Assembly: GCA_013306675.1 (NCBI GenBank)
Contig: JABLUY010000228.1
Coordinates: 1-58,296, forward strand
Source of the DNA: Thraustochytrium sp. TN22
Lineage: Eukaryota; Sar; Bigyra; Thraustochytrida; Thraustochytriidae
Reading direction: 5' to 3'
Length of the DNA: 58,296 nucleotides
The notes under the pieces were generated by a model, which did not search any database, was not told where the DNA came from, and saw only the letters and a program-made list of their open reading frames with translations. Every line of letters begins with the position of its first letter. The first letter of the stretch is position 1. Shown here one piece after another: positions 189 to 58,296 of the stretch. Made by a program: the position numbers and the translations under genes.

Positions 189-2543
189 ATGGCGCGGCCG
201 GTGGAAGAGTACGCGCGCATGATGCGCGAGGTGCACGAGAAGGCGGACAGCGAGGCGTGCGAGCCGGAGATGGAGGAGAACGTGCGCATGGACCTGATGC
301 TGCTGGAGCTGGCGGCGATGCGGTGGGAGCTGCCGCTGCTGCACGCCATGATGAGCCTGGACCGCGAGGAGCTCATCAAGGAGGCGACCAAGGACAAGCG
401 CATCAAGCTGCTGGTCATGTTTGGGTCGATCCAGGGCGCCGCGCGCGACCTGGACGAGAGCATCGAGGACCTCTTCGCGGACTTCGCCGTGACGGTGCAC
501 GAGATGGACATCCCGGTGCCCGCGCAGGCGCTCAGCAAGCTGGTTCTGCTCGAGTTCAAGGTGCAGCTCGCACTGGCCAAGCTCATGGGCCGCGTGCCGG
601 ATGTCGTGCACCGCAAGGCGACCGGCGCCAAGGCGGTGGGCTCTGGCTCGGACTCCGACTCGGACTCCGACAAGGACGGCGAGGACGAGGCGACTCCGGC
701 GCTGACCAAGGAGGAGGAAGACAAGGAGCGGGCTGCCATGCTGGAGCGCGTCACGCCCCAGGCCATCCAGGAGGTGCTGGATGTCGTGGGCTCCAAGCTC
801 GGCATGGAGAAGGAAGAGCTCCCGGGCAAGGACTCATCCGCGGGATCCTCGTCGGACTCCGACTCCGATGATGACGATGACGATGATGACGATGACGACG
901 ACTCCGACTCCGATGATGACGAGGACGACGACGAGCAGAAGAAGAAGAAGAAGCAGAAAAGCAAGCAGAAAATGCAGAAAAGCAAGCAGAAGAAGACCAA
1001 GACTAAAACCGAAAAGGACAAGAAGCAGACCAAGAAGAAGGCCAAGGCCAAGAAGCAGACCTCCGAGGAAAATGGCGACGACAAGGATTCCAACGACGAC
1101 GACGACGACGACAAGGACTCCGACGACGAAGACGATGTCGGCAGCGAGGACGCTGTCACGCAGCTGGCCGTCAACACGGCCACCAAGCTGATCTGTACGA
1201 AGCTGAGCGAGATCAGCGAGGCACTCCCACCCCCAGAAGGGAATGGGCGCAAGGTCTCCAAGGCGATGCGCAAGCAGCGCAAGGCGGCGATCGAAAGGAG
1301 TTACAAACTGCTCAAGGACTTCGAGGCGGCGCACAGCTGGCCCGACTTCCTCACGCTGCTCGAGGGCTTCTTGCGGTACTGCCAGACGCACGTCTACCGC
1401 AACACACCGGCCATGCTGCAGCTGCTGCGCACGCGCGCCGAGGAGGACCGGCTTGTGGCCGCGCAGGAGACGCCGCCGCAGCTCACGCCGCGCGAGGCTG
1501 GCGCCGGCCCCGCGCGGGGCTCCTCCCCGCTGCCCCCGCCCCCGTCACGGGCCGGCCCGCCCGTGGCGTCATCCTCTTCATCAGCAGCGCCCCCTGCGCT
1601 GCGCATGGCCAAGCGCCCCTCGGCGCTGCTGCGCCAGCTGCAGGAGGAGTTCCTCAGCCGCGCCGACACGACCGAGGACGACTGGCAGGCGCTGCGCAAC
1701 GTGACGCCCTTTGACGCGCGCGAAAAGGTGCGCTCCTTCGTGCAGACTGCCGTTGTCGCCAGCTCGCAGGCCGCCGCGATTCGCAGCGCATCCAAGGGCG
1801 CCAACGACAGCGACAGCGACAGCGATCACATTATGCCGCTCACACAGGCCGACAGCGACGACGGGCTCGATCTCCCGCCCAAGCGCGCCGTGACCAAGCC
1901 ACCCAAGCTCTTGGGCGCCGACAACTCCGACTCCGACTCCGACGGCGGCGCCAATGGCTTCGACGCCAACGAAGACGACGCCACGGTTCGCGATGCCAAG
2001 CAGCTGCGCGAGAAGTCCGCCCGCGACCGCGCCAAGCACGCCGAGGAGCTCGAAGACCTGCTCGCCAGGGCAAAGCCCGTGACCACCTCCACGCCTACCA
2101 GCGTCTCGAACCGTGCGCGCGACAAGGATCGCCAGGTCGTCAAGCGCCGCCTCAACTACGACGACAACGATGAGAACGACGACGACAACGAGGACGACGA
2201 GGACGCCTTTGCCTCCGAGTTCGACCCCATCGTCAAGAAGAAGAAGAAGAAGATCGACAAGCACATGCGCGGACCCGACTCGCCCATCTTGATGACCAGC
2301 TTCGGGACCCCACGCCTCCGCAAGAGGCGCAAGAAGGCCGTCCCCTGGACCGAGGCCGAAACGCGCGCCCTCGTCGACGGCATCCGCATTCACGGCAAGG
2401 GCGCCTGGGCCGCCATCCTCCGTGCTAAAAAGGACGACCTGCATCCCTCCCGCGACGGCGTCTCTCTCAAGGACCGCTTCCGCAACATGGAGATCAAGAT
2501 GAAGAAGGCCGGCCTGACTGACCCGGCCGACCTGCTCAAGTAA
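189..2543 (+). CDS. Telobox Myb-domain protein (TRF/TBF-like candidate telomere-repeat binder)
   Basis: 784 aa from the first ATG, which has A at -3 and G at +4; codons further 5' in this frame have no ATG. The C-terminal ~68 residues (about 717-784) form one Myb/SANT repeat beginning PWTEAETRALVDGI, with WAAIL in helix 2 and VSLKDRFRN in helix 3. The last matches the telobox consensus VDLKDKWRN that contacts telomeric DNA in TRF1/2 and plant TRFL proteins. A C-terminal single Myb is the usual TRF layout. N-terminal to it are two helical, Leu-rich segments (about 20-145 and 320-430) that could be TRFH-like dimerisation modules, but no family signature is clear. Long Asp/Ser and Lys tracts, several of SDSDSD type, separate them and suggest CK2 sites and nuclear location. 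A general transcription regulator of the telobox class is the alternative. Confidence 0.75.
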   Translation: MARPVEEYARMMREVHEKADSEACEPEMEENVRMDLMLLELAAMRWELPLLHAMMSLDREELIKEATKDKRIKLLVMFGSIQGAARDLDESIEDLFADFAVTVHEMDIPVPAQALSKLVLLEFKVQLALAKLMGRVPDVVHRKATGAKAVGSGSDSDSDSDKDGEDEATPALTKEEEDKERAAMLERVTPQAIQEVLDVVGSKLGMEKEELPGKDSSAGSSSDSDSDDDDDDDDDDDDSDSDDDEDDDEQKKKKKQKSKQKMQKSKQKKTKTKTEKDKKQTKKKAKAKKQTSEENGDDKDSNDDDDDDKDSDDEDDVGSEDAVTQLAVNTATKLICTKLSEISEALPPPEGNGRKVSKAMRKQRKAAIERSYKLLKDFEAAHSWPDFLTLLEGFLRYCQTHVYRNTPAMLQLLRTRAEEDRLVAAQETPPQLTPREAGAGPARGSSPLPPPPSRAGPPVASSSSSAAPPALRMAKRPSALLRQLQEEFLSRADTTEDDWQALRNVTPFDAREKVRSFVQTAVVASSQAAAIRSASKGANDSDSDSDHIMPLTQADSDDGLDLPPKRAVTKPPKLLGADNSDSDSDGGANGFDANEDDATVRDAKQLREKSARDRAKHAEELEDLLARAKPVTTSTPTSVSNRARDKDRQVVKRRLNYDDNDENDDDNEDDEDAFASEFDPIVKKKKKKIDKHMRGPDSPILMTSFGTPRLRKRRKKAVPWTEAETRALVDGIRIHGKGAWAAILRAKKDDLHPSRDGVSLKDRFRNMEIKMKKAGLTDPADLLK

Positions 2544-2784
2544 GTGCCCATGCAAACCTTCGTCAATTCCTCTGTTGATGTTCGGACCTTTTCCTTTTCG
2601 ACCGAGCGTGGCGCCCAGACCCGGGCTGCCGCTCTTCGCGCCAAGTGGGACGACATCGACTCCGCCTGCATCGGCGTTGTTCTCGTCCATGGACACATTC
2701 GAGAACGCGACTCTCTCCCGTCTGTTTCTGATTACTCTCACCAACAAATCTATCAATCTACCCACCTCACTACACACGAGCCTC

Positions 2785-4212
2785 TTATGAGCCGCCTGCT
2801 GCCGGCTCGCTGGCCGGCATCGCCAGCACCTTAAAGGCGATCTGTTCCATTCTCGCCTTGAACTCGCGCTCTTCGTCAAAGGGCGCCTTCCCCTCCCTTA
2901 GCTTCTCGATTGCCGCCGCCACGCGTTCGGCGCCCCGTTGCCGGTCCGTGAGGACATCGAGTTGGTCCTGGAGAGCCTCGGCTTCCTGCATACCCACCTC
3001 CTTCTCGCGCGCCTCCCTGATCCTGCTCGTGGCGCTCAAAGCAATGCGTTCGAGCAGCCAAATGCGCTCCTTGTTGGCTGCTTGGGCGCTCGCCAGACGA
3101 GCCCGCGCCGTCTCGTACATGCGCGTCGCCTCGCGCAGGTCTCGATGCGACTCGTGCATTTCCAGCGCTGCCCTGGCTAGCTCCGCGCTCGATAGCTTGA
3201 GCAGGGCCGGCAACGCATCCTCGACGTGGCGCGACTTATCGTCCAAGAGCTGCAGTGCCTGGATGAGGGCTCCCTCCGTCTCCTGACGCAGCTTCGCTTC
3301 CTTCTCCGCACGCTCGCCCTCGTGCGCAACGACGTTCACCAGACACTCCAGCGCACTGCCGAACCCAGGCCCACGGGCATCTGCAGCGACCGCCGCAGTC
3401 GCAGAGGCAGGTCGCTCGGGTGGTTTCGGAGCCGCCTCGGGAAACTTTACGTCCGGCACGACAAGGGCGGCAGCCCGCGGGAGCGAGGTCGTGTTGGAGT
3501 GGGACGTGACCACGATCTTGTCGGCCTCCTCCGTCAGGGCAGAGACGTCCACGTAAAAGAGCAGCCTCCGAGCACAGTTGGAGTAGTCCGACGAATCTGG
3601 CGCAGCAACCGGAACATCCTTGCTCAGCCGCGAGAAGCACTCCGGCCGAAAGTGCGTGTAGCACACCAGCAGCTGCGTAGGTGGTATCTGGTTCACGTCC
3701 GCCTCGCGAACGCCAAGGTGCTCGAGCCAGCGGGAGCGCACGTTGAGCCCCCCCTGCATGCGGTTCGCCATCGGGAGCCGGCAGTACCACCCATTCAAGT
3801 TCGGCCAGTCGCCCTTTCTGTCCGCACGCCGGCATGCGCCCGAGGCGATCTGCGATGGGACCCTCTCGCAGATGCAAATGGCGCCGCGGTTCGGATTCGA
3901 ATGTGCAGATCTCCGCTTCCTTTGCTGCTCGTCACCTTGACTGCCGTCCTCCTGCGCGCGCGCCCTTTTCCCTGCTCCGGACGGCAGCGCTGCTGGGGGG
4001 GACGAGGACGAGGACTCTGGCGATTCTGATTCTGCTGATGCTGATGCTGCTGCTGGAGATGACGATGCGGCTGATGATGTCAACGCTGCTGAGCGTGCCG
4101 GCGCTGGTGGGCGGATCGACGCTGCTGAGCGTGCCGGCGCTGGTTGGCGAGTCGACGTTACTGGGCGTGCTGGCGCAGCTGGGCGTGCCGACGCTTCTGC
4201 GCTTGGAACCAT
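2785..4212 (-). CDS. THAP-like zinc-finger protein with C-terminal coiled coil
   Basis: 475 aa from the first ATG; the frame stays open 5' to about 4260 but has no earlier ATG. The N-terminal ~95 residues are low-complexity Ala/Pro/Arg/Ser, including a 12-residue repeat (core PAPARS), followed by a basic KRKR-type patch. Residues ~110-205 resemble a THAP C2CH DNA-binding domain: cysteines at 113, 115, 127 and 144, a Trp in a GWYC context, SRWLEHLGV, and a very THAP-like CYTHFRPECF (C184, H187). The first cysteine pair lacks the classical C-x2-4-C spacing, so zinc ligation may differ. Residues ~290-450 are Glu/Arg/Ala-rich and predicted coiled coil, as in many THAP proteins. It converges on the telobox gene 241 bp away. 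A domesticated transposase DNA-binding domain is one possible origin. An unrecognised intron near the domain cannot be excluded. Confidence 0.65.
   Translation of the reverse strand: MVPSAEASARPAAPARPVTSTRQPAPARSAASIRPPAPARSAALTSSAASSSPAAASASAESESPESSSSSPPAALPSGAGKRARAQEDGSQGDEQQRKRRSAHSNPNRGAICICERVPSQIASGACRRADRKGDWPNLNGWYCRLPMANRMQGGLNVRSRWLEHLGVREADVNQIPPTQLLVCYTHFRPECFSRLSKDVPVAAPDSSDYSNCARRLLFYVDVSALTEEADKIVVTSHSNTTSLPRAAALVVPDVKFPEAAPKPPERPASATAAVAADARGPGFGSALECLVNVVAHEGERAEKEAKLRQETEGALIQALQLLDDKSRHVEDALPALLKLSSAELARAALEMHESHRDLREATRMYETARARLASAQAANKERIWLLERIALSATSRIREAREKEVGMQEAEALQDQLDVLTDRQRGAERVAAAIEKLREGKAPFDEEREFKARMEQIAFKVLAMPASEPAAGGS
4082..4190 (-). repeat. 36-bp tandem repeat coding a 12-residue Pro/Ala/Arg repeat
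   Basis: About three copies of a 36-bp unit with core GACGCTGCTGAGCGTGCCGG on the + strand. It lies in frame in the N-terminal tail of the THAP-like gene and encodes units around PAPARSAA. The first two copies are nearly identical and the third has diverged. Confidence 0.7.
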
Positions 4213-4813
4213 GACGACGTGTGACACCGCAAGCGACCCGCCGCGCCTCGTTGCGTCCACAGCAACGATCGACGAGCACCCAAGCGCTCCGCGATCTGCT
4301 CGCCACCGCGCGTGAGCCGCGCACCTGCCTCCTGCACGACGCCAAGGTCGTCGTCGAAGCTGTTCCCCGAGTCGCCAACGCCGGCGGCTGCCCGACCGAC
4401 GACTCTCCTCCGCCGCTGCAGCCGTAGGCGGGGGCCCAGGCGGGGCGCTGGGCGCCGCGCGACCGGGCGCCGCCGTCCGCCCGCGCGCCCGCGCGCAGGG
4501 CAGGGAACCCGCGCCGCGCGGGGTTCGCGCTTGCGCTCTACTCGAGCTGGCCAGACGCGGCGCCAGACCAGGACGCGTTTAATACGTCTCGGAGCGTCTC
4601 GGACGCGCGGCTTGTGTACGATACTCCGTGCGCGCTCCGCGGCGCTGCGGCAGGGCAGGGCGCGGCACTGGCAGCCTGGGCGTCGTCCCGCCGCGCGGCT
4701 ACGTGACCTCGTACTGGCGTCAATCTCGCTGCAACGTTGGACTTGGAGGTCCGAGGCGAGCTGCACAGAATCGCACAGAACCCGTGACTTCTTCCACGCT
4801 GCCAGCGGCTGCC
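4213..4813. other. Intergenic, GC-rich, upstream of THAP-like gene
   Basis: No supportable gene. Open frames here have unstructured Arg/Ala/Pro translations typical of random GC-rich DNA. It probably contains the promoter of the THAP-like gene on the - strand. Confidence 0.4.
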
Positions 4814-35103: not shown

Positions 35104-37375
35104 GGTGCCCGGCCGTGACCACGTGTCGTCTCGACGGTCCGGCCGCGGTTGCGCGCCGTGCCGCGGCCCTCGCGGCCCTCGCGGTCCCTCTCGCCGGGCC
35201 CTCCCTCTGCCGCGCGCGCCTCGCGCGGCGCTTTCGGGGCCAGTGTCGGAGTTCGAGCTGTACGGGGTCTGCACTGCCTGCAACTTGGCGAGTCGCTGCG
35301 CGAGCAGGCCGGGAAGCATCGTGACTTCAAGTTCTCCCCGGACTCTCCTCAATCTTGCTGACCGCGGCGGCACTACCACTGCAACTGGGCGAATCGCTGC
35401 AGTCAGACGTAGGGCAGGCAGGACTCGAAGTCTCATTCATCGTACTGACTTGTCACCGGACTCTACTCTACTTTTCATGTTCTTGTCTCCGTCTAGCTAG
35501 CTAGGCCTAGCTGATAGAAAGACTTGCGACCGCGGCGGCATCATTACCGTCGTCGCCAGCATCGCAATAAGGGTAGACGTTGTTGTTGGTGTGCTCGTCG
35601 AGCTTGGGCACAGCGGTCTTGTAGCAGCGTTCCTTGATGTCGTACCAAGACTTGAGCTCCTCGAGGATAATGCCCTTCATGCGGTGGAGCACGTCAGCAT
35701 AGGCCTTGTCCTGTGAGAGCTCGTGCTCCTCTCGCGGATCCGAGGTGAGCTCGTAAAGGCAAAAGTCATTGGGACAGGGGTGCGGCGCGTTGGTCCTGGT
35801 CAGGGGCTGATCGCCCGAATCCTGGAGCGAGCTCCAGGTGACTGGCCAGCCGGCCGTGCCCTTGATGATCTTCCACTGGCGGCCCTGGTCGCCATCGACG
35901 GTCATACCAAAGCCGTGGTGACCGTAGCTCACGCTTCCCAGGACCACGGACGTGCGTGCCGGCGCGAGCGCTGCCCGATCCGAGTCGTTGGCCGCCGTAA
36001 GGTGCGCCCAGTGCGAGACGCTGTCGAGAGGCCTCTTGGTCTCGAGCGAGTAACCCGCCACGTCGCCTAGCGTCGCGAACCAGTCGGTGATGTGCATGAG
36101 GCCGGCGTAGGTGCTGCCGCGGTTTCGGATGCCGTAGCCAGCCACGAAGGCCGTGCCGTGCACGCCGCCTTCAAAAACGGTGAACTTGCCGCCCCGCAGG
36201 GGCGTGTTGCGACTGCCGCAGGAGTCAATGGTATGGACCGGCCCGCCGTTGTCCGTGGACACGACGATGAGCGTGTTGTCGTCTGTCATGCCATTGCGCT
36301 CAAGCGCGTCCAAAATCCTGCCCACGCCCATGTCCGCGGCCGCCAACATGCCGGCGAACTGCCGGCGCCGGCCCGACTTGAGCCGCGTCAGGTACGGCTC
36401 CACGTATTCAGGCGGGACTTGATTGACCTGGTGACCGCCGGCATGGACGGCCTGGAAGGCGACAAAGAGAAAGAGCGGAGGCCTGCCCGGACCAAGCGCT
36501 CCGTGCCTGTTGATGACCTCGATCGCCTTGTCGGTGAAGAGCTCGGTCGAGTACACTGTTTGCGACTCCCACGCGACGCGAACGCAGGAGGAGTTGCTGC
36601 AGCGCGGCGCCTTGGCGTCGATCATGTCGTGCCAGATCTTGTCACTCGAGCTGTAGTGCTGGAAATAGTCCATGGCCCCCGTCAGGTAGCCGTAATAGGT
36701 GTCGAAGCCGCGGAAAGTCGGCGTGTGCTCCCAGGTGTGGTGGCCAAGGTGCCACTTGCCCACCATGTGCGTCGCGTAGCCTGCCTCCTTGAACTTTTGT
36801 GGCAGCATCACCTCCTCTAGCTCCACGCCAATTCCCGAGGTGGCGCTGAGGATGTCGTGCACACCCGTGTGGTGCGAGTATCGCCCGGTCTGCAGCGCCG
36901 CGCGGCTTGGCGAGCACACGGAGTGCACGTGGTACCGCATCAGGTCCACGCCGCGCTTCACCAGTCCGTCAAGGTGCGGCGTATCGATCTGGTTCCCGTT
37001 GCGGTGGCCGAGGTCTGCCCACCCCATGTCGTCGAAGAGCACGAAGACCACGTTCGGCTTGGTGGCCCTCGCATGCACGGTCAGCGCCAGCGCCGCCAGC
37101 GCCGCCAGCGCCTGCATCGGCTTGCCGCGCATCATCGCGGCGAACCGAGGCGAGCTAGTGTTACCCTGTCAACTCTGCCTGGACGCCGACGCTCCGAGGC
37201 GCTCCGAGTCGGGGCCGTTGGTGATTGCCGCCGCCGCCTGTCGCGGCGGACACGGCCCGGGGTCGGTGGCCTGGCCCCAGCAGGTTGCTCGCGGCGGATC
37301 TTGGCTCTGGGTCAGAGGGGTACCGGTAACTGGTACCTGCGGTCGTTTACTACTAACTTAAGCTAGCCCTGTGGC
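34870..37375. repeat. Segmental tandem duplication, copy A (TDP1 5' end + sulfatase A)
   Basis: About 2.5 kb repeated head-to-tail at an offset of ~2,547 bp (the TDP1 ATG at 35101-35103 aligns with 37648-37650). It contains the first ~75 codons of TDP1, the TDP1-sulfatase spacer and the whole sulfatase A gene with its 5' flank ending near GGTACCGGTAACTGGTACCTGCGG. Confidence 0.85.
35507..37135 (-). CDS. Secreted type I sulfatase, copy A (arylsulfatase B/J-like)
   Basis: 542 aa. A signal peptide (MMRGKPMQALAALAALALTVHARA) precedes NVVFVLFDDMGWADLG with the metal-binding Asp pair. The sulfatase signature CSPSRAALQTGR at 74-85 has Cys74 as the formylglycine precursor. GYATHMVGKWHLGHH supplies the active-site Lys and His, and VVSTDNGGPV the Asp-Asn pair. 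Order and length fit the ARSB/ARSI/ARSJ branch (N-acetylgalactosamine-4-sulfatase type), which hydrolyses sulfate esters in lysosomes or outside the cell. All catalytic residues are present. It is a near-twin of the copy at 38046-39680 with only scattered changes (e.g. GHHGFGMTVDGDQ against FNHGFGMTVDDDQ). Exact substrate unknown; marine sulfated polysaccharide is plausible. Confidence 0.92.
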   Translation of the reverse strand: MMRGKPMQALAALAALALTVHARATKPNVVFVLFDDMGWADLGHRNGNQIDTPHLDGLVKRGVDLMRYHVHSVCSPSRAALQTGRYSHHTGVHDILSATSGIGVELEEVMLPQKFKEAGYATHMVGKWHLGHHTWEHTPTFRGFDTYYGYLTGAMDYFQHYSSSDKIWHDMIDAKAPRCSNSSCVRVAWESQTVYSTELFTDKAIEVINRHGALGPGRPPLFLFVAFQAVHAGGHQVNQVPPEYVEPYLTRLKSGRRRQFAGMLAAADMGVGRILDALERNGMTDDNTLIVVSTDNGGPVHTIDSCGSRNTPLRGGKFTVFEGGVHGTAFVAGYGIRNRGSTYAGLMHITDWFATLGDVAGYSLETKRPLDSVSHWAHLTAANDSDRAALAPARTSVVLGSVSYGHHGFGMTVDGDQGRQWKIIKGTAGWPVTWSSLQDSGDQPLTRTNAPHPCPNDFCLYELTSDPREEHELSQDKAYADVLHRMKGIILEELKSWYDIKERCYKTAVPKLDEHTNNNVYPYCDAGDDGNDAAAVASLSIS

Positions 37376-38045: not shown

Positions 38046-39680
38046 CTAGCTGATAGAAATACTTGCGACCGCGGCGACATCATTACCGTCGTCGCCAGCA
38101 TCGCAATACGGGTAGACGTTGTTGTTGGTGTGCTCGTCGAGCTTGGGCACAGCGGTCTTGTAGCAGCGTTCCTTAATGTCGTACCAAGACTTGAGCTCCT
38201 CGAGGATGATGCCCTTCATGCGGTGGAGCACGTCAGCATAGGCCTTGTCCTGTGAGAGCTCGTGCTCCTCTCGCGGATCCGAGGTGAGCTCGTAAAGGCA
38301 AAAGTCGTTGGGACAGGGGTGCGGCGCGTTGGTCCTGGTCAGGGGCTGATCGCCCGAATCCTGGAGCGAGCTCCAGGTGACTGGCCAGCCGGCCGTGCCC
38401 TTGATGATCTTCCACTGGCGGCCCTGGTCGTCATCAACAGTCATACCAAAGCCGTGGTTGAAGTAGCTGACGCTGCCCAGGACCACGGACTTGCGTGCCG
38501 GCGCGAGCGCTGCCCGATCCGAGTCGTTGGCCGCCGTAAGGTGCGCCCAGTGCGAGACGCTGTCGAGAGGCCTCTTGGTCTCGAGCGAGTAACCCGCCAC
38601 GTCGCCTAGCGTCGCGAACCAGTCGGTGATGTGCATGAGGCCGGCATAGGTGCTGCCGCGGTTTCGGATGCCGTAGCCAGCCACAAAGGCCGTGCCGTGC
38701 ACGCCGCCTTCAAAAATGGTGTACTTGCCGCCCCGCAGCGGCGTGTTGCGGCTGCCGCAGGAGTCGGTAGTATCGACCGGCCCGCCGTTGTCCGTGGACA
38801 CGACGATGAGCGTGTTGTCGTCTGTCATGCCATTGCGCTCGAGCGCGTCCAAAATCCTGCCCACGCCCATGTCCGCGGCCGCCAACATGCCGGCGAACTG
38901 CCGGCGCCGGCCCGACTTGAGCCGCGTCAGGTACGGCTCCACGTATTCAGGCGGGACTTGATTGACCTGGTGACCGCCGGCATGGACGGCCTGGAAGGCG
39001 ACAAAGAGAAAGAGCGGAGGCCTGCCCGGGCCAAGCGCTCCGTGCCTGTTGATGACCTCGATCGCCTTGTCGGTGAAGAGCTCGGTCGAGTACACTGTTT
39101 GTGACTCCCACGCGACGCGGACGCAGGAGGAGTTGCTGCAGCGCGGCGCCTTGGCGTCGATCATGTCGTGCCAGATCTTGTCACTCGAGCTGTAGTGCTG
39201 GAAATAGTCCATGGCCCCCGTCAGGTAGCCGTAATAGGTGTCGAAGCCGCGGAAAGTCGGCGTGTGCTCCCAGGTGTGGTGGCCAAGGTGCCACTTGCCC
39301 ACCATGTGCGTCGCGTAACCTGCCTCCTTGAACTTTTGCGGCAGCATCACCTCCTCTAGCTCCACGCCAATTCCCGAGGTGGCGCTGAGGATGTCGTGCA
39401 CACCCGTGTGGTGCGAGTATCGCCCGGTCTGCAGCGCCGCGCGGCTTGGCGAGCACACGGAGTGCACGTGGTACCGCATCAGGTCCACGCCGCGCTTCAT
39501 TAGCCCGTCAAGGTGCGGCGTATCGATCTGGTTCCCATTGCGGTGGCCGAGGTCTGCCCACCCCATGTCGTCGAAGAGCACGAAGACCACGTTCGGCTTG
39601 GCGGCCCTCGCATGCACGGCCATGGCCAGCGCCAGCGCCGCCAGCGCCGCCAGCGCCTGCAACGGCTTGCCGCGCATCAT
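38046..39680 (-). CDS. Secreted type I sulfatase, copy B (arylsulfatase B/J-like)
   Basis: 544 aa and nearly identical to copy A. It is two residues longer in the signal peptide (…ALALAMAVHARAAKPN). The formylglycine signature CSPSRAALQTGR starts at Cys76, and the DDMGWADL, VGKWHLGHH and STDNGG active-site blocks are all intact, so it should be catalytically competent. Differences cluster in a few residues (VDTTDSCG for VHTIDSCG; KYTIFEGG for KFTVFEGG; SYFNHGFG for SYGHHGFG), which may reflect drift or slight retuning. Both copies keep their own ~500-bp 5' flank, so both could be expressed. Confidence 0.92.
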   Translation of the reverse strand: MMRGKPLQALAALAALALAMAVHARAAKPNVVFVLFDDMGWADLGHRNGNQIDTPHLDGLMKRGVDLMRYHVHSVCSPSRAALQTGRYSHHTGVHDILSATSGIGVELEEVMLPQKFKEAGYATHMVGKWHLGHHTWEHTPTFRGFDTYYGYLTGAMDYFQHYSSSDKIWHDMIDAKAPRCSNSSCVRVAWESQTVYSTELFTDKAIEVINRHGALGPGRPPLFLFVAFQAVHAGGHQVNQVPPEYVEPYLTRLKSGRRRQFAGMLAAADMGVGRILDALERNGMTDDNTLIVVSTDNGGPVDTTDSCGSRNTPLRGGKYTIFEGGVHGTAFVAGYGIRNRGSTYAGLMHITDWFATLGDVAGYSLETKRPLDSVSHWAHLTAANDSDRAALAPARKSVVLGSVSYFNHGFGMTVDDDQGRQWKIIKGTAGWPVTWSSLQDSGDQPLTRTNAPHPCPNDFCLYELTSDPREEHELSQDKAYADVLHRMKGIILEELKSWYDIKERCYKTAVPKLDEHTNNNVYPYCDAGDDGNDVAAVASISIS

Positions 39681-55371: not shown

Positions 55372-56681
55372 CTAGGGAGTGGCACTGCATGTCGACGTCA
55401 TCGTCGCGTTGGCATGCTTCGCATGTGGCGGCGAGCGAACCGTCTCGGCACATCCCCAGCTCACTTGCGGCATGCATGGGTTGTTTGGTACACACGATCA
55501 GGACGTGGTCAGGCCGACCAGGCCCAGCGAGCAGGTTCTTGCATGCACACGCAACGCCGTTCTGCCAGACCCTTGTACTCTGGTCCAGCGTCAGCCACAC
55601 CACAAGGCCTGATCAAGGCCGCAATGAAACGATTGTCCAACCTCTTGCCTTGATGCGCTCCGTGTCTTGGCACTCGATGATCTTCGGTCGCAGTTCAATC
55701 CGGTATCGCCATGTTGACGGCGTACAATAATCTCGTCACGGGCGGGGGCTTCCCGCGTCGCGACGCATCGAATCCCACTTAGGACTGGCAGGGCTTTGTT
55801 CATGAAATAGAGTGAGTCAAACAAGATCAGTGGGTTTGCGGGTCCAGGTAGGGAGTGAGCCAGACATTTGCGATTGTCACATCGCGTCGTAGCAGCCTAT
55901 TCGAAGCTCAAGGCCCACGACCCCCGCAGTCACATTGGACACCGTGACCACACGCGCGCTCGTGGGTGTGGCTGCTCGACCAAAAGGACGCCATCATGCA
56001 GTCGCATACGCACCTTTGCTCAACTTTGGCGCACTCGACAAAGATAAGACTGTCGTGGAAGCCGACCTGAGCGCACGCGAGCTAGGGGCCGGTCTGCAAG
56101 GACCCAAAGGGCCAGGTCTCGGCGCCTTCGACGAAAGCTCGAGGCCTTGCAAGTCGCCACAGAATGACACCGAGCTGCTTCACTGCGCGCTGAAGGAGGG
56201 CGAGATGCTCGTCGTCCCACGGGGTATCCGGCGCGCAGCCAAGAACCGTCGCTTTGAAGTAGATGCGGTCCGGCACCAAGAAGTCCAGCAACCACGGCGC
56301 CCGTGATAAGTTACAGCCTGCTGCAGCCTGCTACACCAGGTCGTGCCAGCGGACGAGCGACGAGGCCGGTCGCCGCGCCGCGCTGCCGAGAACGCCGTCA
56401 GCGCGCGCGCCGGCCCTGCGCCGCGAGCGCGCGCACCGCCGCCCTGCAGGCTGCAGCCACCGCACCGCGCTGCACCGCGGCGCTGCGCTGTACCGCGCGT
56501 GCCGCACACCCCGCCAGGCGGCAGACGGCCAACGCGCGCGCGAGCCCGGCGGCGCGGCGCGGCGAGAGAGCGGCAGCGAGAGCGGCCTGGGCGCGGCGGC
56601 GCGGCGCGAGACCGCACGGAGCGGCGCCGCGCCAAGAGACCGCGAGGGCGGCGCACGAGGACCTGGAGACCGGCGGCCGCC
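55372..56681. other. Intergenic ~1.3 kb
   Basis: Lower-GC, non-repetitive to ~56300, then GC-rich approaching the next gene. Short protein-like frames occur on both strands at 55940-56300, but neither has an ATG start or recognisable domain. The last ~350 bp probably holds the promoter and 5' UTR of the LRR gene. Confidence 0.45.
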
Positions 56682-58296
56682 ATGCCGCGGTACTACAGCG
56701 CTGCCGAGGCCGTGCAGGCCATCAAGAACGGCGAGACCTATGTCTGGTACGTCTTGTGCGAAGGCGCCTGCGGCTGTTGGTCTGCCTGCCTGCCCGTGTG
56801 CCCGCCTGCCTGCCTGCCTGCCTGGCTGTCTGCGCGGGCTCGCGGGCGCGGCAGGCGGGCGGGCAGGCGCGGCGCGGCGAGGCGAGGCCAGGCGAGGCGA
56901 GGCTTGCGAGGCCCCGGCGCGGCGAGGCGAGGCCGGCAGGCGCGGCGCGGAGAGGCGGCGCGCGCGCGCAGGCGGGCGCGGCGCGCAGGCGGCGAGGCCG
57001 GCCTGGCCGCGCGCGCGCGCGGACCGGCGGGCCCGCCCGGGGAGGCGGGCGACACGACGACTGACCGCGCCGCGACCCCTTGTGCTTGCGAAACCAGGAT
57101 CGGATTGCTGCGCAGTGCGAACCTCAAGAAGGCGGGCGCGCTCGAGGTGGCCGGCGCGCTCGAGGGCAACACGAGGCTCCAGGTGCTGAGGTGAGTTGCG
57201 GCGCGCGCGCGAGGCGACGGCGGCGAGCGGGTCCGCGCGGCGGGCGGGCCTGGGCTGGCTGCTGCGGCGCGGCCCGCCCGGCGCAGGCCGGACGTGACGC
57301 GGGCGGCCTGCGGCGGGGCGCGGGCCGCCGCCGGCGCGGGCTGCGCGGCCGCCGGCGCGGTGGCGGGGCGAGCAGACTGACTGACGGAGCCGCGGCCGCC
57401 TCGCTCTCGCTCTCGCTCGCGACCAACAGGATCTATAACGACGACATCGGCGATGACGGGACGCGCGCGCTCACCGCGGCGCTCAAGGGCCACCCGACGC
57501 TCGCGAACTTTCGGTGCGTCCGCCAAGCGCGCTCGCCAGCCGGTCTGCCCTCGGACGGCGGCGGAAGTCGATTTCTTGCATCACTGATTGCTGACCGGCG
57601 GCGCGCCTGGGTGTGTGTATGCGTCGCAGGCTGGTTGACTGCAAGATAGGCCAAGAGGGTCTGCGCGCCGTCCTGGCGCTGCTCAAGACCAACCCCGCAC
57701 TGGCGACGCTGAAGTAGGTGCTTGAGGCGACGCCGAGTCACCAGCAAGACGGCCTGCTGGCTGGCAGTGGACTGACGGACGATGGATCGGCGCGTCGTGC
57801 CCGGCCGCTTTCGAACGCGCAGCGTCGCCGGAAACAACCTGGGTCTCGCGGGCGCGCGCGCCGCGGCGGCGGCGCTCGACGGCTGCAAGACGCTGCGGGA
57901 GCTGTGGTGCGTGAGGCCGCGGGCCGGTGCGGCGGCGGCGCGGGCTCTGGTGCCGCGGCTGCCGCGACGGGCGGCCCACTGGCACGGGAGGACGGAACCC
58001 GGCTCGGCCACCCGGCTAACATGCTCAACGCGCGCTTCACAGGTTCCATATTAACGGCATCGGCGACGCAGGCGCGCGCGCTTTCGCGGAGGCGCTGCCG
58101 CGGAACAGGTCGCTCACGAAGTTGGAGTAAGTAGATCGTGCCGTGCCATTGTTACCGCGCTGGCTGGCCCGGCGTGGCAGTGGCCTGGCCTGGCCTCGCT
58201 CAAGCTTGCCTGGCGGGCGGGGGTCGGCCAGAGTCTCTAGCGAGCCGGGCGCGCAGGCCGCCGGCCGGGCTGGCAGCCAGAGGGAAATGGGCTCCC
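56682..58296 (+). CDS. Leucine-rich-repeat (RNI/NLRC3-like) protein, multi-exon, 3' end beyond window
   Basis: Exons: 56682-56746, 57098-57190, 57430-57513, 57630-57713, 57823-57906, 58043-58126, then a donor into an intron running off the window. Donors are GTACGT, GTGAGT, GTGCGT, GTAGGT, GTGCGT and GTAAGT; acceptors end in AG, mostly CAG. The protein starts MPRYYSAAEAVQAIKNGETY and continues as RNI-type LRRs: LKKAGALEVAGALEGNTRLQ; IGDDGTRALTAALKGHPTLA; IGQEGLRAVLALLKTNPALA; LGLAGARAAAAALDGCKTLR; IGDAGARAFAEALPRNRSLT. Four internal exons are exactly 84 nt and every junction lies after codon position 2, so each exon encodes one 28-residue repeat. RNI-like LRRs form horseshoe protein-binding scaffolds; partner unknown. 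Introns are 351, 239, 116, 109 and 136 nt, the first rich in GCCTGCCT and GGCGAGGC repeats. Confidence 0.88.
56747..57097 (+). other. Intron 1 of the LRR gene, repeat-rich
   Basis: 351 nt, GTACGT…AAACCAG. It contains a (CCTG)n-like run (~56780-56825) and GGCGAGGC/GGCGCGGC arrays to ~57000. It is the longest intron seen in the window. Confidence 0.8.

Follow-up and report, generated by a model that had tools for sequence, protein, structure and literature searches.

The gene that runs off the end of the window, by which we mean the whole 58,296-nucleotide stretch of Thraustochytrium sp. TN22 DNA analysed here, encodes leucine-rich repeats (LRRs) in four consecutive exons of identical length and phase and is most likely the 5' portion of a ROCO gene with the domain order LRR-ROC-COR-TIR, the downstream domains of which were read in one paralogue, C4. 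As such, it would represent the 5' end of one member of a large family of receptor-like genes. We consider it likely, if well short of settled, that whole repeats turn over in this family through events located in the introns and that selection, together with recombination or gene conversion, diversifies the codons of the beta-strands. One symmetric phase-2 exon per LRR, cut in the middle of its beta-strand, would let recombination within introns insert or delete complete repeats without shifting the frame. Recent copies of the gene appear to have been diversified in the exposed strand codons that flank the introns, the introns themselves and the codons for buried residues and helices seemingly having stayed almost constant.

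Exon structure and its recurrence across loci

The contig (label C142) ends at 58296 within intron 6, leaving the gene truncated (Table 1). Four consecutive 84-nt exons, as proposed in the initial annotation, were confirmed as exons 3 to 6, each preceded by AG and followed by GT, with introns of the GT..AG type; interruption after codon position 2 was likewise borne out for all five complete introns and for the donor of the sixth. Two points of that annotation needed amendment. The position from which it started the series, 57098, is that of exon 2, whose longer first repeat stands outside the 84-nt series, and its description of one 28-residue repeat per exon in a constant register is right with the correction that codons are split at the borders, each exon holding 27 whole codons and parts of two.

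Table 1. Features of the predicted LRR gene at the end of the window (positions are those of the window).
Feature	Positions	Strand
Shared upstream region (paralogues C4, C128 and, in part, C96)	56394..56681	+
Exon 1, 65 nt, predicted start codon	56682..56746	+
Intron 1, 351 nt, phase 2	56747..57097	+
Exon 2, 93 nt, first LRR (31 residues)	57098..57190	+
Intron 2, 239 nt, phase 2	57191..57429	+
Exon 3, 84 nt, one LRR	57430..57513	+
Intron 3, 116 nt, phase 2	57514..57629	+
Exon 4, 84 nt, one LRR	57630..57713	+
Intron 4, 109 nt, phase 2	57714..57822	+
Exon 5, 84 nt, one LRR	57823..57906	+
Intron 5, 136 nt, phase 2	57907..58042	+
Exon 6, 84 nt, one LRR	58043..58126	+
Intron 6 (beginning only), up to contig end	58127..58296	+

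The 28-residue repeats of exons 3 to 6 match LRR_6 in Pfam (PF13516, E 7.7e-9) and are of the RI type, that is, related to those of ribonuclease inhibitor. The latter is also the best PDB match by sequence (E 4.6e-22), and NLRP and NLRX1 chains figure among the PDB matches listed for the LRR region of the window gene. The RI repeat follows the consensus LxxLxLxxNxL. Placed by this consensus, the split codon presumably specifies the exposed residue between the two strand leucines, so that each intron would cut a beta-strand mid-way. Used as a query, the spliced LRR region retrieved one relative from a large protein set. The regularity of the 84-nt exons is genuine and well formed, and is no artefact. 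As to the proposed scarcity of introns in the other genes of the window, comparison of eight further open reading frames with Pfam gave a domain match in a single open frame for four of them and no match for the other four; each of two adjacent sulfatase-like genes on the minus strand (35507-37135 and 38046-39680) occupies one uninterrupted frame.

Exons of this kind recur in a census of 39 loci (168,756 bases), which were picked by their match to an LRR or COR query and do not imply a genome-wide rate; these are 39 of 59 loci, the other 20 of which overlap them. A strict donor rule yielded 76 LRR exons of 84 nt in phase 2, all in a single register, as against one in phase 0 and none in phase 1, and no such exon after one triplet-block shuffle. 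Under the same phase, exons of other lengths numbered three at 78 nt, one at 81 nt, five at 87 nt, none at 90 nt and two at 93 nt. Taken together, the counts by phase, register, length and shuffling argue that the 84-nt exons are not a product of chance. A looser rule raised the total to 100 exons, 88 with a length of 84 nt and 12 with one of 87 nt, spread over 20 of the 39 loci; they form 22 arrays in which two or more exons follow each other, 18 of these arrays having three or more and the longest nine; the array in C128 was counted across its exon 4, whose donor is lost, and the single hits in loci L002, L008 and L028 may be due to chance. In L043 (C121) and L048 (C265), LRR exons of 87 nt and identical phase form runs of three alongside 84-nt arrays. 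Three stretches of C288 near 23-37 kb that contain ROCO copies had no 84-nt exon under a census-type rule.

The gaps between successive exons (n = 74, median 110 nt) fall about equally into the three remainders modulo 3 (25, 26 and 23 cases), and retained introns would therefore often break the frame. Within LRR frames that are not split by introns (those with at least three repeats, in 15 loci, two overlapping pairs being counted once), AG and GT in the register of the exon borders were found at one of 77 repeats.

Paralogues and domain order

The window gene has paralogues on contigs C4 (90% identical over 1.9 kb), C128 (94%) and C96 (80%, partial). Homology with the C4 and C128 copies begins at about 56394, which points to copies dispersed by duplication and away from alleles at a single locus. 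The C4 copy is open from its ATG through eight predicted introns into an exon carrying the P-loop of ROC. Its exons measure 65, 93, 84, 84, 84, 84, 105 and 84 nt, followed by a last exon made of a partial repeat and the P-loop; the 105-nt exon 7 resembles an 84-nt exon with 21 additional nucleotides that repeat their neighbourhood in frame. Downstream of the LRRs, Pfam recognizes Roc (E 2.6e-6), COR-A (E 1.7e-12) and TIR_2 (E 1.1e-10), in that order, and neither NACHT nor NB-ARC was among the Pfam matches of the ROC and COR-TIR pieces of this copy. The window contig ends before the region that corresponds to ROC and COR, and our assignment of the window gene to the ROCO-TIR class stems from this continuation of the C4 paralogue into ROC, COR-A and TIR. 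By the domains seen in C4, the product would be a ROCO protein in which the LRR horseshoe may bind a ligand, with ROC-COR as the putative GTP-dependent switch and TIR as the putative output domain, the whole protein working much like an NLR. An immune role for the TIR-ROCO genes is likewise suggested by their domains.

Of the window gene and its C4 and C128 copies, the latter two may be pseudogenes or may bear assembly errors. The ROC region of C4 is interrupted at C4:71369-71710 (L040:7369-7710) by a stretch that contains a stop and a perfect direct repeat of 96 bp, and this copy may be inactive. The reading frame of the C128 copy (L042, minus strand) is apparently broken twice, within exon 1 and where exon 7 begins, and the donor GT of its exon 4 is lost, which may denote either a pseudogene or an error of assembly. 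Just upstream of the C4 gene, a stretch at C4:65785-67277 (L040:1785-3277) is 79% identical over 1.5 kb to its COR-TIR part, perhaps indicative of tandem ROCO genes.

Across the genome, 46 matches to COR-A and 123 to TIR_2 were found, and 36 of the 46 COR-A matches have a TIR_2 match on the same strand no more than 2 kb downstream. On C160, four TIR_2 matches spaced 1043 bases apart, each with one internal TGA, occupy positions 1247-4627; these may be TIR domains arrayed in tandem or else a repeat produced in assembly. Inspection of contig starts placed three of the 46 COR-A matches (C158, C267, C327) and eight of the 123 TIR_2 matches (C273, C325, C384, C355, C160, C340, C152, C94) within 1 kb of such a start. 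The assembly may thus break within these families, in which case the copy numbers are lower bounds.

Repeat gain and divergence of the strand codons

Repeats have been gained by duplication of whole exon units. In C4, a unit consisting of one LRR exon and a flanking intron is present in tandem (82% identical over a 454-nt alignment) and is single in C128; in C398, a two-exon unit is doubled (943-1448 and 1600-2058, 79% identical). The aligned copies end within introns in both cases. These duplications lend substance to the earlier proposal that such exons can be duplicated without loss of frame, C4 having one unit more than C128. LRR exons number seven in C398 and five each in C11b, C285a, C285b and C99, and two and three were found in C11a and C288, respectively. 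The companion proposal that the introns are kept for repeat expansion fared less well: in-frame duplication of exon units in C4 and C398 speaks for it, but unsplit arrays of 28-residue repeats in the same genome indicate that such arrays can do without introns here. C402 carries an unsplit array with 14 repeats detected, and C188 has four split exons just upstream of an unsplit array, the two probably belonging to one gene.

Those unsplit arrays would also be expected if the regular exons were an old, fixed and functionless relic of the way the LRRs originated, with no present role for the introns and with strand variation reflecting ordinary LRR evolution. The recurrence of a five-exon set in four genes of a second family, family B (C11b, C285b, C285a and C99), fits this account as well, as does a ratio of pN to pS of about 1 in the strand codons of that family (see below). 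The duplications in C4 and C398, at about 80% identity and with intronic ends, run counter to it, for they indicate that turnover has not been only ancient, and the strand codons of the window gene and its closest relatives have diverged about ten to eighteen times as much as their introns, an excess that ordinary drift leaves unexplained. We regard the relic account as rather improbable.

The excess was seen first in what we call family A, the window gene with its C4 and C128 copies, where it was counted in exons 3 to 6 only, exons 1 and 2 being left out. Among the three copies, the amino acid varies in 13 of 20 strand columns and in none of the 88 others (Fisher p 4e-12). The varying positions of the repeat are 2, 3, 5, 25 and 26 together with the split codon, the exon-end part of which varies in three of the four exons. 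At the nucleotide level, 30 variable columns lie in strand codons and three elsewhere; pN/pS is 4.9 in strand codons and 0 elsewhere, and silent differences amount to 0.069 and 0.027, respectively. Differences between the window gene and C128 affect 18/72 positions in strand codons, 1/264 in the rest of the exons and 5/360 in the intervening introns; the corresponding figures are 20/72, 3/264 and 10/345 for the window gene and C4, and 26/72, 2/264 and 13/345 for C4 and C128. Strand codons thus differ by 25-36% and introns by 1-4%. In exons 1 and 2, the copies also differ beyond the strand class (codons 3-4 in exon 1 and codon 4 in exon 2 are examples), codons near both the start and the end of exon 1 being variable.

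Since the strand positions were picked after viewing the alignment of family A, family B (seven genes) is the sole independent test. There, all 25 strand columns vary, compared with 47 of the 110 remaining columns (p 2e-8), pN/pS is 1.04 in strand codons and 0.45 elsewhere, and silent differences are 0.48 and 0.23, respectively; a strand pN/pS of 1.04 does not by itself demonstrate positive selection. Taken pair by pair, strand codons differ more than introns between C11b and C285a (36/90 and 219/902, p 0.002), between C11a and C11b (15/36 and 38/226, p 0.001) and between the unit copies inside C398 (14/36 and 12/91, p 0.003), with a weak excess for C285a and C99 (53/90 and 405/861, p 0.04) and for C11b and C99 (54/90 and 394/859, p 0.01). 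The difference between C11a and C285a is not significant (16/36 and 71/224, p 0.18), no strand excess was found between C99 and C288 (4/54 as against 38/331), and C11b and C285b are too similar to tell (1/90 and 0/942). The strand excess is pronounced in family A and of medium size in some pairs of family B, with one pair lacking it.

As to its cause, we favour diversifying selection, with recombination or gene conversion acting between the copies, as the most likely. Selection on contact residues together with homogenisation by such exchange accounts for the data without a new mechanism. Intron divergence between the window gene and C4 is uneven (4/585 in introns 1 and 2 as against 16/250 in introns 5 and 6, p 4e-6), as would fit recombination or conversion between copies; the two sets of introns were set against each other once the data had been seen, and the contrast is absent between the window gene and C128 (p 1).

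Alternatively, a dedicated mechanism, germ-line or somatic, might mutate or swap the strand codons around each intron rather than selection acting on random mutations. The confinement to strand codons of all but three of the variable columns in exons 3 to 6 is suggestive of such a process, as are changes of two or more bases in a good number of the changed strand codons (4/8 for the window gene and C128, 3/11 for the window gene and C4, 8/13 for C4 and C128), which adjoin nearly identical introns, and the raised silent differences at strand codons in both families. In C128, moreover, the lost exon 4 donor and one of the two frame breaks, that of exon 7, fall at or beside strand codons; these lesions may, on the other hand, be errors of assembly. 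Further against a targeted process, the pattern is absent between C99 and C288, and an adenine-directed version akin to diversity-generating retroelements (DGR-like) is not favoured, nine of the 30 variable columns being without A in all three copies. We hold a dedicated mechanism to be quite improbable, and doubtful in the same degree its more specific form, in which the ligand-contact codons of TIR-ROCO genes, lying to either side of each intron, would be renewed by hypermutation or the exchange of very short cassettes, generating germline or clonal diversity on a fixed exon scaffold. False differences or breaks from collapsed repeats and mixed reads in assembly or polishing are very improbable as the source of the pattern: three of four family A copies, the partial one on C96 being counted with them, run off contig ends and some COR-A and TIR_2 matches begin near contig starts (see above), but every amino-acid change in exons 3 to 6 of the three copies falls in a strand codon when noise would ignore the repeat register, two of the three silent changes outside strand codons sit at codon 27, and the same bias is found in the tandem unit within one contig (C398) and on other contigs.

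Relation to known receptor families

Equal exons of one LRR each are already known as an architecture, from NOD/NLRC, brown algal ROCO and Tetrahymena genes as described in the sources cited below. Human NLR genes carry a NACHT domain, whereas in the present family the candidate switch is ROC-COR and the candidate output TIR, as read in the C4 paralogue. Vertebrate NOD/NLRC genes are described as having, for the most part, one 28-residue LRR per exon with a frame-preserving border at a fixed place in the beta-sheet (PMC6642158). RI-type LRRs, one repeat per exon and a fixed border in the beta-strand are thus common to both (PMC6642158), and the window gene has the NOD/NLRC exon arrangement, a likeness of architecture only in which the placement of the strand comes from the RI consensus.

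A closer parallel in domain content comes from the LRR-ROCO genes of brown algae, stramenopiles in which these genes are considered candidate immune receptors (PMC11378527). They are described as having 72-bp phase-2 exons encoding 23-residue LRRs, with exon shuffling, positively selected LRR positions and splice variants (PMC11378527; Zambounis 2012, cited therein), and the passages of that paper on domain content give no combination beyond LRR-ROC-COR. Equal phase-2 exons of one LRR are common to both groups; the exon length and the lack of a further domain are not, the Thraustochytrium exons being of 84 nt with RI-type LRRs and the C4 paralogue carrying TIR_2. In Tetrahymena, nearly 50,000 tandem exons of 90 bp, with more than 96% phase-2 introns, are ascribed to exon duplication and ectopic recombination (PMC6564038). 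The tandem arrangement of equal phase-2 exons is alike, the length is 90 bp there and 84 nt here, and ROC-COR-TIR goes unmentioned in the passages of that paper on Tetrahymena (PMC6564038).

The nearest protein relatives lie elsewhere. With the COR-TIR part of C4 as a query, nine were retrieved, and all eight that are named belong to Hondaea fermentalgiana, a labyrinthulomycete, which makes a labyrinthulomycete source for the window probable; they are 40-53% identical to the query and, by precomputed domain assignments, carry COR-A in eight of eight cases and both ROC and TIR in seven of eight. These ROC-COR-TIR proteins are mostly annotated as kinases or GTPases. Among the matches listed in a search of open-licence PubMed Central text, we found no paper on 84-nt RI-type exons combined with ROC-COR-TIR in a labyrinthulomycete nor, judging by titles and the opening lines of abstracts, any on ROCO-TIR genes of labyrinthulomycetes.

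What raises the interest of the window gene beyond the known regularity of such exons is its setting in a TIR-ROCO repertoire together with the divergence focused on strand codons. The family probably joins, in a unicellular stramenopile, three features that we found described apart, namely a NOD-like exon of 84 nt per repeat, a ROCO switch and a TIR output. The symmetry of the exons should make gain, loss and skipping of repeats measurable by long-read sequencing and, should the divergence focused on strand codons hold up, near-identical copies such as these would offer a direct means of testing in culture how receptor-like proteins are diversified in protists.
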